Below are positions 16,364 to 20,777 of a DNA stretch of 64,000 nucleotides, in pieces; within the stretch, counting starts at the first letter, position 1, and every line of letters starts with the position of its first letter. The notes below the pieces were generated by a model, which saw nothing but the letters and a program-made list of their open reading frames with translations, ran no database searches and was not told where the DNA came from. Source of the stretch: an uncultured Gammaproteobacteria bacterium (GTDB lineage: Bacteria; Pseudomonadota; Gammaproteobacteria; UBA4575); NCBI GenBank assembly GCA_951812785.1, contig OX638335.1, positions 833,501-897,500 of the forward strand, in the 5' to 3' direction. The translations under genes were made by a program, and so were the position numbers.

Positions 16364-17245
16364 ATGTCTAAAGGACAACCTGCCATACTTTTAGATGTTC
16401 CTGCGCACTCACGTTATTTAACGTTCGTGATTAAAAATTCTAATGAATTAAAAAATGTGCTTGCTTCCTTATCTCATATAGTGGATGGCAGCAGTGTAGC
16501 CATGGGTATCGGTCTTGAAGTGGTCACGACAATGCATGAAGAAGTGCCGGGTTTACGTTTATTCCCGAACTTGAGTAAAGCGCAGGTGCCAGTGTCTGCG
16601 ACACCTGGTGATTTGTGGTTTTGGCTTCGTGGCGATGATCGAGGAGAATTACTGCATCGTGGTCGTGCTATTGAGGTGATTGCTAAACCTGCGTTTGAAT
16701 TAATCAATGCAGTCGATGGATTTAAATATGATGATGGTCTGGATCTCACCGGCTATGAAGATGGTACTGAAAACCCTAAAGATGAATTAGCACTGCAAAC
16801 TGCGTTAATGACAGGCGAAAGTGTGAAGATGGATGGATCTAGTTTTGTTGCCGTACAGCAATGGTTACACGACTTGAATTATTTTGAGAGTTTGCTTGCA
16901 GAGCAGCAAGATAATGTATTTGGTAGAACTAAAGAAACTAATGAAGAGATCGACGACGCACCTAATAGTGCTCATGTGAACAGAGTAGAACAAGATGACT
17001 TCGATCCGCCCGCTTATGTTGTACGTCGATCCTCTCCTTGGATTGAGAATCAGCAGTCAGGACTTATGTTCGTATCATTTGGGCATTCATTTGATGCATT
17101 TGAAGCGCAGCTTAAAAGAATGGTGGGTTTAGATGACGGTATAACTGATGCTTTGTTTAATTTTTCAAAACCGTTGGCAGGAAACTACTACTGGTGCCCT
17201 CCGATTGGTAAAGAAGGACTCGAGCTTGCTCAAATTATGAGCTGA
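16364..17245 (+). CDS. DyP-type heme peroxidase
   Basis: A 293-residue dye-decolorizing peroxidase close in size to E. coli YfeX. It has the family GXXDG motif at residues 130-134 (GYEDG, followed by TENP) that supplies the distal Asp, the SAHVNR segment with the likely proximal heme His, and the C-terminal GLMFVSFGHSFDAFE and PLAGNYYWCPP blocks. There is no signal peptide, so it is cytoplasmic. It sits immediately upstream of a Fur box and the hemP remnant, a context of heme and iron handling. Physiological substrate unknown. Confidence 0.93.
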   Translation: MSKGQPAILLDVPAHSRYLTFVIKNSNELKNVLASLSHIVDGSSVAMGIGLEVVTTMHEEVPGLRLFPNLSKAQVPVSATPGDLWFWLRGDDRGELLHRGRAIEVIAKPAFELINAVDGFKYDDGLDLTGYEDGTENPKDELALQTALMTGESVKMDGSSFVAVQQWLHDLNYFESLLAEQQDNVFGRTKETNEEIDDAPNSAHVNRVEQDDFDPPAYVVRRSSPWIENQQSGLMFVSFGHSFDAFEAQLKRMVGLDDGITDALFNFSKPLAGNYYWCPPIGKEGLELAQIMS

Positions 17246-17283
17246 TCTGAATAATTAAAAGGGATATTGCTTGCAATCACGAA

Positions 17284-17298
17284 TGATAATGATTATTA
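17284..17298 (+). promoter_or_regulatory. Fur box upstream of hemP remnant
   Basis: The 15 bases TGATAATGATTATTA match the 7-1-7 Fur consensus (TGATAAT-N-ATTATCA) at 14 of 15 positions. The site lies 40 bases before the ATG of the hemP remnant, where a Fur site that blocks RNA polymerase is expected. It can be read as an operator that has outlived its gene. Confidence 0.75.
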
Positions 17299-17337: not shown

Positions 17338-17501
17338 ATGTCCAACCAACTATCTCTATCATAAATAAGCAAAATACATCAAATTCAGCAGTATCAGTCA
17401 CAAACTTGTTAAAGGGCAAGCGCTATGCCTAGATAAGTCATGCGGACAAGACTTATTTGTTACAACTAACAAAATCAAATAAGTTGCTGTTGACTAAATA
17501 A
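17338..17501 (+). pseudogene. hemP: hemP/hmuP-type hemin uptake regulator, broken
   Basis: HemP proteins are small (about 50-70 residues), Fur-regulated and linked to heme uptake, with a conserved ending of the form I-x-H-x-G-x-x-Y-x-L-R-x-T-x-x-x-K-L-x-L-T-K. Here TTAGGAG plus ATG (17338) opens a frame that stops after 8 codons. In the -1 frame the sequence continues VTNLLKGKRYA, an in-frame TAG at 17430-17432, then ISHADKTYLLQLTKSNKLLL plus TK and TAA at 17499-17501, which is the HemP ending. One missing base after the start and one nonsense codon therefore disable it. The strong Fur box at 17284 supports the identity. Confidence 0.72.
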
Positions 17502-17520: not shown

Positions 17521-17660
17521 AACTTCTCCTGTAATTTAAGTGGCCTTGACTCCGCTACTTAAACTTGAGGTACTCAAGCCAGGGCCTATCACTTTTTACC
17601 TAACAGTAAATAAGTGAGTGACCTCCTCATATCCACCTAGGCCGGTAGCCAGAGTATTTT
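17521..17660. other. Structured intergenic stretch of unknown role
   Basis: No gene is seen between the hemP remnant and bufA. The stretch contains several nested inverted repeats: the perfect hairpin CTTGAG-GTA-CTCAAG (about 17563-17577), an enclosing imperfect pair (AAGTGGCC near 17538 with GGGCCTATCACTT), and a second hairpin (CACTTTTTAC with GTAAATAAGTG near 17590-17615). It lies upstream of the predicted bufA promoter, so it would be transcribed only from the Fur-controlled promoter or as a separate RNA. It does not match any riboswitch consensus that I know. Confidence 0.4.
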
Positions 17661-17668
17661 TTAAATTA

Positions 17669-17695
17669 TGTAATCAAATTGACTTCAATTTCGTC
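17669..17695 (+). promoter_or_regulatory. Candidate ECF-sigma promoter of the buf operon
   Basis: TGTAATC at 17669-17675 and CGTC at 17692-17695 are separated by 16 bases. This resembles ECF promoters of the TGTAAC-N16-CGTC form. Predicted transcription would start near 17703, about 60 bases before bufA. The sigma factor encoded at the end of the same operon is the natural candidate to read it (inference). Confidence 0.5.
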
Positions 17696-17764
17696 TTATA
17701 GAGTGAGTGCAAGCAATCCTCAAAAATTGTTTGCGATAACTTTACTTATTCCGGAGGACGGAAA

Positions 17765-18049
17765 ATGAATAAAAAACTTGTTGTAGATTCAGCTATCGCT
17801 ACTATCTTTTCAGTGGGAATGCTAGCAGTCACTCAAGCACAGGCAGTTCCAGATCAACCTAAAGAATGGGAAAAATGTGCTGGTATAGCTAAAGCTGGGA
17901 AAAATGACTGTGGTGCACTCGATGGAAAACATGGTTGTGCAGGCCAAGCTACGGTTGATAATGACGATACTGAATGGGTTTATGTGCCTGGCGGTACATG
18001 TGCAAAAATTACTGGTGGTGTTGTTGCTAAAGTAAAACCTGCTAAGTAA
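17765..18049 (+). CDS. bufA: BufA1-like bufferin precursor (DUF2282)
   Basis: A 94-residue exported RiPP precursor. Residues 1-27 form a signal peptide (basic start, hydrophobic core, AQA before the cut). The mature part has the DUF2282 pattern with four Cys at positions 38, 49, 58 and 79, in the contexts EKCAGIAKAGKNDCG, GKHGCAGQA and VPGGTCAKI. In described bufferins the neighbouring DUF692 enzyme converts core Cys residues to thiooxazoles and the peptide binds copper in the periplasm. The ribosome binding site CGGAGG is very strong and lies 8 bases before the ATG. The gene heads a five-gene operon with bufB, bufC, an ECF sigma and its likely anti-sigma. Assignment to the family is firm. 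Copper as the metal here is inferred from family knowledge. Confidence 0.9.
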   Translation: MNKKLVVDSAIATIFSVGMLAVTQAQAVPDQPKEWEKCAGIAKAGKNDCGALDGKHGCAGQATVDNDDTEWVYVPGGTCAKITGGVVAKVKPAK

Positions 18050-18059
18050 TTAGTTTGCC

Positions 18060-18944
18060 ATGAGCATGCGTAGCCCTAATTTTATTGATTCATCAACTCT
18101 GAAAGGAATCGGAGTCGGGTTACGTGCGCCTCATGTTGCTGAGATTTTAACTAACCAGCCAGAGCTGGATTGGTTTGAATTACTGGCAGATAATCACATT
18201 GCTGAAGGTGGGTGGTTACGCAGACAAGCAATAGAGGTCGCTAATGTTTACCCTGTGACCATGCATTGCGTGGGCATGTCGATAGGCTCAATAGACCCAA
18301 TTAATTTTGACTACCTGAAAAAAATAAAAAACTTAGCAATGGAGATAAATCCAAAATTAATATCGGATCATCTGTGCTGGACATCACTGCACACGCATTA
18401 CTCACACGACTTGCTACCGCTGCCTTATACAGAAGAAGCGTTAATACACGTTGCAAGTCGAATTAATCAAATTCAAGACTATTTGGGCGTTCGCATTGCG
18501 GTAGAGAATGTTTCAGCGTATCTCACATATAAGCATTCAATTATTAATGAAGTGGAATTTATAAATGCGCTGGCACAGAAAGCAGATTGCTCAATTCTAT
18601 TCGACATTAACAATTTGTATGTTAATCAAGTTAATAACGGGCAAGACAGTGATGAATATATAAATAATATTGACGTTAATCGTGTTGCCGAAATTCATTT
18701 GGCAGGATTTGAAGAAAAAGAAAATTATTATTTAGATGCACATAACAGTCATGTTCATGAGGATGTTTTGGTGTTATATGAAAAGTTTCTTTCTTGTAAT
18801 AAGGATATTCCTACATTAATAGAATGGGATCATGATATTCCTGAATTTTCAGTGTTATATGGCGAAGCAATAAAAGCGAAAAATGTACATCGAATGTTTA
18901 ATGATAAGCGGGAGAGTGAATATGAACTCGCAGATGCTAGCTGA
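18060..18944 (+). CDS. bufB: BufB-like DUF692 multinuclear iron oxygenase
   Basis: DUF692 (MNIO) enzymes use a multi-iron centre to modify Cys in RiPP precursors (MbnB, TglH, ChrH, BufB). The 294-residue protein shows the TIM-barrel signature positions that carry iron ligands: GVGLRAPH at the N-terminus, TMHCVGMSIGS, SDHLCW, VENVS, FDINNLYVN, EIHLAG, DAHNSHVHEDV and LIEWDHDIP. It begins 10 bases after bufA and overlaps bufC by 23 bases, so the three are translated together. Its substrate is presumably the adjacent precursor. The frame is complete. Confidence 0.93.
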   Translation: MSMRSPNFIDSSTLKGIGVGLRAPHVAEILTNQPELDWFELLADNHIAEGGWLRRQAIEVANVYPVTMHCVGMSIGSIDPINFDYLKKIKNLAMEINPKLISDHLCWTSLHTHYSHDLLPLPYTEEALIHVASRINQIQDYLGVRIAVENVSAYLTYKHSIINEVEFINALAQKADCSILFDINNLYVNQVNNGQDSDEYINNIDVNRVAEIHLAGFEEKENYYLDAHNSHVHEDVLVLYEKFLSCNKDIPTLIEWDHDIPEFSVLYGEAIKAKNVHRMFNDKRESEYELADAS

Positions 18945-19689
18945 AATTCAAAATCAATTCTGGAGTGGATTGAAGTATTCCGATAATGAAATCATATCAG
19001 CTATCCATGAGAGTGATGACTTCAAATCTACCGATAGATTTGGAGTTTACCGCAGCAATGCCAGATATTTACATGTATCAGTACTGATTAGCGTATTTCC
19101 AGTGTGTGAAAAAATACTAGGTAATGAAAACTTTAAGCAGATAGCAAAAAAATATTTTAATGACAATCCTTCTTGTAGCCCAGATCTGAATGAATATGGA
19201 GAATACTTTCCAAGTTATTTATATGGTCTAATTATGCAACGTGCAGAATTAGAGGAGTATAAATATCTTGTTGATCTTGCACAGCTAGAATGGAATAGGC
19301 AAAAAGCTTATTTCTGTGATGATGCGGTAGACTTAGATATGACAGTGTTTCAGCAAAGCTGTGAACGAATGGGCGGCGAGATTGTGTTTTCGCTACAACC
19401 AGGGATATCTATACTAGAAACACAATTCCCAATTGTTGCATTATGGGAAATGTATCAAAGTGGCTCAATTGAAAAAGAAGTTAAGTTTATTCAGCAAAGC
19501 GAATATTTGTGTGTTTATAGGAAGGAATTTCAAGTGCAACATGAAAAAATTGATGCCGATATTTTTAATCTAATGAAAGCAATCCAAAATAAATGCACTC
19601 TGTCAGCAATTGCTGAAATTTTCCAGAAAAGTGCACGCTTGAATGCAGCAATTGAAAAAGTTATTAAACGCAAATGGTTGAAAGTTTAA
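18922..19689 (+). CDS. bufC: BufC-like DUF2063 protein, bufferin maturation partner
   Basis: DUF2063 proteins accompany DUF692 oxygenases and are thought to bring the precursor to the enzyme; the old label of DNA-binding domain is not supported by that role. The 255-residue product has the N-terminal family pattern (LAEIQNQFWSGL, DRFGVYRSNARYLHVSVL, FPVCEKILG) and a C-terminal winged-helix-like region (NKCTLSAIAEIF). The ATG at 18922 follows a GGGAGAG ribosome binding site inside the end of bufB; the frame is open from 18883, but the upstream codons lack such a site. Overlap with bufB indicates translational coupling. Confidence 0.88.
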   Translation: MNSQMLAEIQNQFWSGLKYSDNEIISAIHESDDFKSTDRFGVYRSNARYLHVSVLISVFPVCEKILGNENFKQIAKKYFNDNPSCSPDLNEYGEYFPSYLYGLIMQRAELEEYKYLVDLAQLEWNRQKAYFCDDAVDLDMTVFQQSCERMGGEIVFSLQPGISILETQFPIVALWEMYQSGSIEKEVKFIQQSEYLCVYRKEFQVQHEKIDADIFNLMKAIQNKCTLSAIAEIFQKSARLNAAIEKVIKRKWLKV

Positions 19690-19695
19690 TTAGCA

Positions 19696-20178
19696 ATGTT
19701 TGATAATGATCAGCTTAATAGTTTGTATAGATATTGCTTCTCGCTGACAGGAGATGAGAGTGAATCGTACGACATATTACAGTCAAGCATAGAAAAATTT
19801 TTGAAAGCCAATGTTGAAAGCGTTGAGAACAAAAATGCTTACATGAAAAGAATTATTCGAAATCACTATATAGATGTAAGTAGAAAACGATCAAAGATTG
19901 ATGAAGAGGAGTTTGATGAAACTGTCACCTATGTTGATATGCATATTAATTCACTAGAAAAGATTGTTGCTTCACAGTATCAAGTTGAAGCAGTGTGGCA
20001 GGAATTAAGTTCCTCTGAGCGTGAGATTATGTACTTTTGGGCGGTAGAAGGTTACACGACGAGTGAGCTGGCTGAATTTTTAGATATTTCTCGAGGAACC
20101 TTGTTATCAAAAATTCACCGTTTACGAAAACGACTCAAGCAACAATTTGATGATTCGGGCAAGGAAAGCGTGCTATGA
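19696..20178 (+). CDS. ECF-type RNA polymerase sigma factor
   Basis: A 160-residue sigma factor with only regions 2 and 4. Region 2 spans about residues 8-75 (CFSLTGDESESYDILQSS, NAYMKRIIRNHYIDVSRKR) and region 4 about residues 95-150 (SSEREIMYFWAVEGYTTSEL, DISRGTLLSKIHRLRKRLK, the helix-turn-helix that reads the -35 element). It follows bufC by 6 bases and overlaps the next gene by 4 bases. ECF factors in such loci are known to drive buf genes in response to metal. Here the promoter at 17669 is its likely target (inference). Confidence 0.9.
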   Translation: MFDNDQLNSLYRYCFSLTGDESESYDILQSSIEKFLKANVESVENKNAYMKRIIRNHYIDVSRKRSKIDEEEFDETVTYVDMHINSLEKIVASQYQVEAVWQELSSSEREIMYFWAVEGYTTSELAEFLDISRGTLLSKIHRLRKRLKQQFDDSGKESVL

Positions 20179-20777
20179 AGCAGGAATTAAGAAAAGTCGT
20201 TAAAGGCTATGTTGAGTCTCAAGAGCTCAATAGTGATCAGTTACATAGTTTGACTAAACTGATTAATACACATGGTGAGAAAAATAACCAAAATAAACTT
20301 GTTAAGTTTCGAGTAATAGCAGCGGTGATAGTGGTATCAATTGCTCTTGGTTTATTTTGGGGTTATGGAATAAATACGCAAGCAAATGTTTCACAATCGA
20401 TCGCTGAAGAAGTGGCGCATAATCACTTGAAAATGAAGCCCATGGAAGTATCCAGTACTTCGTTAAGTGATGTGCGCCGATATTTTAATAAGTTAGATTT
20501 TTCTTTAAGTCAGTCTAAGTTTGTCGCCAATACTAGTCTGCAACTGATTGGTGGCCGTTATTGTTCTATCCTAGGTGAAACTGCAGCGCAGTTGCGAATG
20601 ACGGATGAAGCAACTGGCAATATGCAGATTATTTATCAGGCTCCCTATGATCAAGAGTTATTCCGTGAATTACCGAGCTTGGAAAAGGGCCAAGACCCTG
20701 TGCGTCATTATGTGAATGGTATCAGTGTTGATGTATGGGTTGAAAAAGGGATCTTGTTTGCACGCTCTTTTAATTAA
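20175..20777 (+). CDS. Putative membrane-anchored anti-sigma factor
   Basis: The 200-residue product has a charged cytoplasmic N-terminus (residues 1-44), one membrane helix (about 45-67, FRVIAAVIVVSIALGLFWGY) and a periplasmic domain of about 130 residues containing LIGGRYCSILGETAAQLRM. Single-span proteins overlapping an ECF gene by 4 bases are usually its anti-sigma; I see no zinc-binding HxxxCxxC motif, so this is not a ZAS-type. The lone periplasmic Cys in GGRYCS could take part in metal or redox sensing (speculation). Function is assigned from context. Confidence 0.7.
   Translation: MKQELRKVVKGYVESQELNSDQLHSLTKLINTHGEKNNQNKLVKFRVIAAVIVVSIALGLFWGYGINTQANVSQSIAEEVAHNHLKMKPMEVSSTSLSDVRRYFNKLDFSLSQSKFVANTSLQLIGGRYCSILGETAAQLRMTDEATGNMQIIYQAPYDQELFRELPSLEKGQDPVRHYVNGISVDVWVEKGILFARSFN

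Follow-up and report, generated by a model that had tools for sequence, protein, structure and literature searches.

The bufferin operon and its products

Five genes lie together on the plus strand of the window, a stretch of 64,000 nucleotides from a gammaproteobacterial genome of 2.16 Mb that consists of a single contig. They encode a bufferin precursor, its maturase, a partner protein, an ECF sigma factor and a membrane protein, from herein called the fifth protein. Coordinates are those of the window unless a locus (L) is named.

17670-17698, plus strand: ECF promoter GTAATC-N16-CGTCTTA, conserved before bufA and compared with loci lacking the sigma gene
17699-17764, plus strand: bufA 5' leader, containing a stable hairpin (z-score -4.7; a similar hairpin in genome G004 has z -3.9)
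17765-18049, plus strand: bufA, 94 aa, Buf1 (DUF2282) bufferin precursor (PF10048, E=4e-23)
18059-18136, plus strand: hairpin at the bufA-bufB junction, covering the bufB start (z -3.3)
18060-18944, plus strand: bufB, 294 aa, MNIO (DUF692) bufferin maturase (MbnB_TglH_ChrH, E=6e-96)
18922-19689, plus strand: bufC, 255 aa from the ATG at 18922, DUF2063 partner protein (PF09836, E=2e-18)
19696-20178, plus strand: ECF sigma factor gene, 160 aa (sigma70_r4_2 over the cut-off)
20175-20777, plus strand: fifth gene, 200 aa single-span membrane protein, putative anti-sigma factor by position and topology

The genes bufB and bufC overlap by 23 bases, and the sigma factor gene and the fifth gene by 4 bases. 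BufB scores 323 bits against the NCBIfam model MNIO_BufB (cut-off 310), and the sigma factor 49.4 bits against sigma70-ECF (cut-off 42.9). The latter protein is built of regions 2 and 4 only, and its region 2 match, at 22.2 bits, stays below the cut-off of 24.

The sequence-only reading of this DNA had described a five-gene locus on one strand, and both this layout and the gene positions (17765-20777, plus strand) were confirmed, as were its family assignments, since DUF2282, DUF692, DUF2063 and sigma70 are all matched in Pfam or NCBIfam profiles. Its identification of a bufferin-type RiPP locus agrees with these matches, with the four cysteines of the precursor, with the MNIO ligands and with conserved synteny. 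Calling the locus “complete” was slightly too strong, however, because DoxX, a common although not obligatory core gene of bufferin operons, is missing: none was found among the operon genes or adjoining them. The DoxX seen in the host genome sits in a separate EGKCG cluster. This second MNIO cluster (L075 1745-6057, genome about 1891744-1896056) comprises an EGKCG-repeat precursor, a glutamate-synthase-like protein, DoxX, HvfB and HvfC.

Absence of the DUF692 iron ligands had been named as a result that would speak against the assignment; in an alignment of BufB to 3bww the metal-ligand pattern is intact (His69, His104, Glu149, Asp182, His213, Asp226, His228 and Glu255), and which of these residues are ligands is well established for MNIO enzymes. 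BufA carries what was judged by eye to be a Sec-type signal peptide, and its Cys38, Cys49, Cys58 and Cys79 are the four conserved cysteines of Buf1. No other protein of the operon is nearly as conserved: identity to the window copy is 87-93% in G002, G003 and G008 (43-51% for BufC in the same genomes), and bufA Ka/Ks values of 0.05-0.08 indicate strong purifying selection. In published Buf1 bufferins the central two cysteines are modified and the outer two are joined as a disulphide (PMC12452194). If this chemistry can be carried over, BufB and BufC would convert the central Cys49 and Cys58 of BufA, and the peptide would leave through Sec and then bind metal in the periplasm.

Gene order and promoter among relatives

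The order bufA-bufB-bufC-sigma-fifth gene is also found in two genomes of the same bacterial family (G007 and G008) and, in other families, in G065, G263 and, with a weaker fifth protein, G064. As the order recurs in other genera and families, the arrangement is not due to chance. The operon of G004 is in pieces: one contig carries its start with bufA, bufB and the sigma gene, and a second contig part of the fifth gene. Two Thiotrichaceae metagenome genomes have looser arrangements: in one (L010) the sigma pair and a separate bufABC are some kilobases apart, and in the other (L011) the pair comes after a bufC fragment.

In the sister species G002 and G003, bufB is gone from the operon and bufA and bufC are kept. 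A short remnant of the bufB start, read by eye, persists in both.

L012 8810-8907 and L013 9658-9769: bufB deletion sites, with the hairpin left behind

The retained bufC is under selection, with a Ka/Ks of 0.15 between the two species. Each also encodes a stand-alone MNIO that is unlinked to the operon and beside which no DUF2063 protein was detected. The window genome and G004 do not have this stand-alone enzyme, given that their two MNIO genes are bufB and that of the EGKCG cluster; G008 has all three. An operon without bufB in G002 and G003 means that maturation in cis is not universal, and we infer that in these species the unlinked MNIO could serve BufA and BufC. The same enzyme must have other work too, as it is present in G014, where there is no DUF2282 match. 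This natural loss of bufB beside an unlinked MNIO makes it directly testable which MNIO matures which precursor. The hairpin that persists at the junction without bufB (z -4.9 in G002 and -2.6 in G003) is like that of the window. Such a hairpin may make the bufA mRNA more stable or limit the amount of the enzyme; lying over the bufB start, that of the window would probably keep BufB scarcer than its substrate.

Upstream of bufA, GYAATC-N16-CGTCT is present in all six related genomes. A 14-position consensus, GYAATCAA-N14-CGTCTW, was defined from this genus and then scored in further genomes; the promoter sits 83-113 bases 5' of bufA in eight genomes with a linked sigma gene. Before bufA it matches at all 14 positions in G007, G008 and G263, at 13 in G065, and at 13-14 in G002 and G003, which lack bufB. 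The stand-alone sigma/anti-sigma pairs of G074, G210 and G307 are each preceded by a site with 13 of 14 positions, and in L010 both of the separate operons have one with 12. The fit is poor in G064 (11/14), where there is an alternative site with a 15-base spacer. At ten loci without a detected sigma/anti-sigma pair, the sequence upstream of bufA scores only 8-10 of 14, i.e. the promoter is missing. Scores of at least 13 were reached in 19 of 5000 random stretches, which is an upper bound for the background because some of those stretches are true sites. The whole genome has only two perfect sites, of which one is that before bufA. The other (genome 1782739-1782767, minus strand) lies within another gene, nearly 400 bases 5' of an M23 peptidase gene, and is probably a chance match.

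The promoter resembles GTAACC-N16-CGAA, from which Caulobacter sigma-F drives two Buf1 operons when metals cause stress (PMC3511200): the GTAAxC-type -35 element and the N16 spacing are shared, whereas the -10 element is CGTCTW here and not CGAA. That the sigma factor would drive the bufferin operon is well supported, the main evidence being the distribution of the promoter, which is present with a linked sigma gene and absent at the loci without the pair. The sequence-only reading had inferred that the sigma/anti-sigma pair drives the whole operon, and this distribution upholds it.

The hemP remnant and the RNA upstream of the operon

A DyP-type peroxidase gene (16364-17245) precedes the locus; its copy in G003 (L013 7962-8839) is interrupted by a frame shift. 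Between this gene and the ECF promoter are three further features:

17281-17298, plus strand: Fur-box-like sequence GAATGATAATGATTATTA before the hemP remnant, read from sequence
17338-17498, plus strand: hemP pseudogene, with a frame shift after the ATG and an in-frame TAG
17535-17664, plus strand: conserved structured RNA of 130 bases, a candidate small RNA, with hairpin 1, an interrupted long stem and a U-run

The PF10636 match to the remnant (17391-17498, one internal TAG) is the sole hemP match in the window genome. In G001-G004 and G008 hemP is intact, and in each of these five genomes it is preceded by a similar, putative Fur-box-like site. The RNA and the Fur-box-like site of the window are intact though the only hemP copy is broken.

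Homologues of the RNA number six (the window, G001-G004 and G008; loci: the window, L012, L013, L064, L101 and L123). In these, hairpin 1 mostly has a GACUCC loop, and the interrupted stem encloses the conserved ACCUCCUC and ends in a U-run. Both sides have changed in 10 of 25 pairs, which none of 500 shuffles reaches, although the count leans towards structure because the alignment was fitted to the model. Taken alone, the G001 and G008 copies have unremarkable fold energies. Tandem units of 97 bases, which share the 3' half of the RNA, come after it in G008 and run off contig ends (L101 1582-1765 and L014 10682-10980); they were excluded from the covariation count, as only their 3' half aligns. 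A 53-base repeat in two copies is found at L101 1394-1494.

The RNA has no match in Rfam, where searching at E up to 10 gives only chance matches, and when 143 genomes of the class were searched with its model, matches came from this genus only. G005 has a weak match (E 0.34) 30 bases 3' of hemP, and there is none in G007. In G001, where no DUF2282 protein was found, hemP is followed directly by the RNA and then by hemL. The RNA thus belongs with hemP, and a role as leader of the buf operon was rejected.

The closest known RNA in position is BrrF of Burkholderia, an iron-starvation small RNA processed from the hemP mRNA (PMC7377471). Likened by position and structure, the two share a length of about 126-130 nt, a place directly 3' of hemP, conserved hairpins and a terminal U-run; Fur control of hemP is described for the BrrF side (PMC7377471) and read from sequence only in ours. 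BrrF-like sequence is reported from nowhere outside Burkholderiales (PMC7377471), and unlike BrrF, the present RNA shows covariation, has conserved loops rich in CUCC, persists beside a broken hemP, and in G008 has tandem units after it. We regard it as a candidate Fur-controlled small RNA placed like BrrF, and as an unlisted, covarying addition to the few known iron-linked small RNAs.

The fifth protein and control of the operon

Published Buf1 operons carry their own sigma factor and NrsF genes (PMC12452194). Like the Caulobacter (CC3254-3257 plus sigF-nrsF) and Cupriavidus (gigPABT plus rpoQ-rsqA) examples, the operon described here has a four-cysteine DUF2282 precursor, an MNIO, a DUF2063 protein, an ECF sigma factor and a presumed membrane inhibitor (PMC3511200, PMC10304878, PMC12452194). 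In contrast to these operons, it has no DoxX, and its sigma genes close the operon rather than lying apart or being divergent. NrsF has six spans, whereas the presumed inhibitor here has one, with another periplasmic domain. Sigma-bearing bufferin operons are already published, and what is new is a putative inhibitor other than NrsF, from a family without a description in Pfam or NCBIfam.

The fifth protein consists of a short cytoplasmic part, one membrane span (about residues 46-68, by eye) and a periplasmic domain. Neither Pfam nor NCBIfam contains an acceptable match for it, and NrsF (PF06532) matches neither this protein nor anything in the host genome or 54 relatives. The sequence-only reading had reported that the HxxxCxxC zinc motif is lacking, and had suggested that the signal may hence differ from known ones; the motif is indeed absent, both from the protein and from the alignment of its family, which is neither NrsF nor any named one. 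His84 (NH..K) and Cys130 (RYCS) of the periplasmic domain are invariant in 16 of 16 aligned relatives, as are Glu79, Asn83, Gln139, Trp188 and the Arg-Tyr-Cys-Ser around Cys130. The family profile gives nothing meaningful against solved structures, and the AlphaFold2 model of the protein is unusable (mean pLDDT 41).

Relatives of the fifth protein occur in 19 of 369 sampled gammaproteobacterial genomes. An ECF sigma gene adjoins the relative at nearly all loci examined (none was detected in L130), and wherever it was found the fifth-protein gene comes after it. The profile of the family matches in 17 genomes, 13 of which have no DUF2282 match, so that copper is not necessarily the signal. DUF3379 is matched weakly by two distant members, and an NCBIfam anti-sigma model by one (E=0.0085). 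From gene position and topology only, the fifth protein is a putative anti-sigma factor.

In our judgement this is likely to be a Buf1-type bufferin operon whose own ECF sigma factor controls it autogenously. In the resting state, the cytoplasmic part of the single-span protein would keep the sigma factor at the membrane. Periplasmic stress, most likely an excess of copper or another thiophilic metal, would be sensed by the domain carrying His84 and Cys130, releasing the sigma factor, which would read GYAATC-N16-CGTCTW before bufA and raise the whole operon, including itself and its inhibitor. Metal or redox stress is a plausible signal, and copper is the one that we infer. With somewhat less than even confidence, we suggest that the fifth protein represents an undescribed class of periplasmic sensor anti-sigma factor whose invariant His (NH..K) and Cys (RYCS) may be direct ligands of copper or another thiophilic metal, and which replaces NrsF in several gammaproteobacterial bufferin operons. 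For bufferin research, the operon offers regulation from a defined promoter together with a putative inhibitor unlike the studied one, and the metal sensing behind bufferins becomes testable by mutating two residues.

The pair may instead be a general envelope or redox-stress module, of which the bufferin operon is only one output in some lineages, its signal being not copper but oxidised thiols or damage to the envelope. The 13 genomes with the family and without a DUF2282 match fit this view, as do the pairs that come after an unrelated exported protein and the single invariant cysteine, which would suit redox sensing. In this bacterial family, however, the buf operon is the only place where the pair was found, the promoter immediately precedes bufA, and the genome has just one other perfect match to it; we hold the general module to be a serious but rather doubtful alternative.

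It seems improbable that the fifth protein, instead of inhibiting the sigma factor, assists it as a positive co-factor or is an accessory protein of the bufferin. Its function is deduced from position, and the window protein matches no known anti-sigma family, but its gene overlaps or adjoins an ECF sigma gene in many families, even where bufferin genes are lacking; one-span topology is usual for class I anti-sigma factors, and the DUF3379 and NCBIfam matches of distant members point the same way. It is likewise very unlikely that iron, acting by read-through from the Fur-box/hemP promoter, and not the ECF sigma factor, is the main control of the operon. The Fur-box-like site, the hemP remnant and the RNA do lie directly upstream, yet the RNA closes with a terminator-like stem and U-run 5' of the ECF promoter, G001 has hemP and the RNA without the operon, and the ECF promoter is present in G007, G065 and G263, the first of which has no match to the RNA.

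Compared by description, a similar system is SigAb-AabA-AabB of Acinetobacter, where SigAb is a copper-responsive ECF sigma factor (PMC12153292). Both systems have an ECF sigma factor and a membrane anti-sigma factor, putative in ours, in one operon and a small regulon. The Acinetobacter system differs in its promoter (GTCAAC/CGTT) and in having two inhibitors, and its direct regulon comprises relA and small RNAs besides SigAb, bufferin genes not being reported among them (PMC12153292). At three further loci (L132, L137 and L138) a distant form of the sigma/anti-sigma pair follows a small exported protein and has a GCAATCAA-type promoter upstream.
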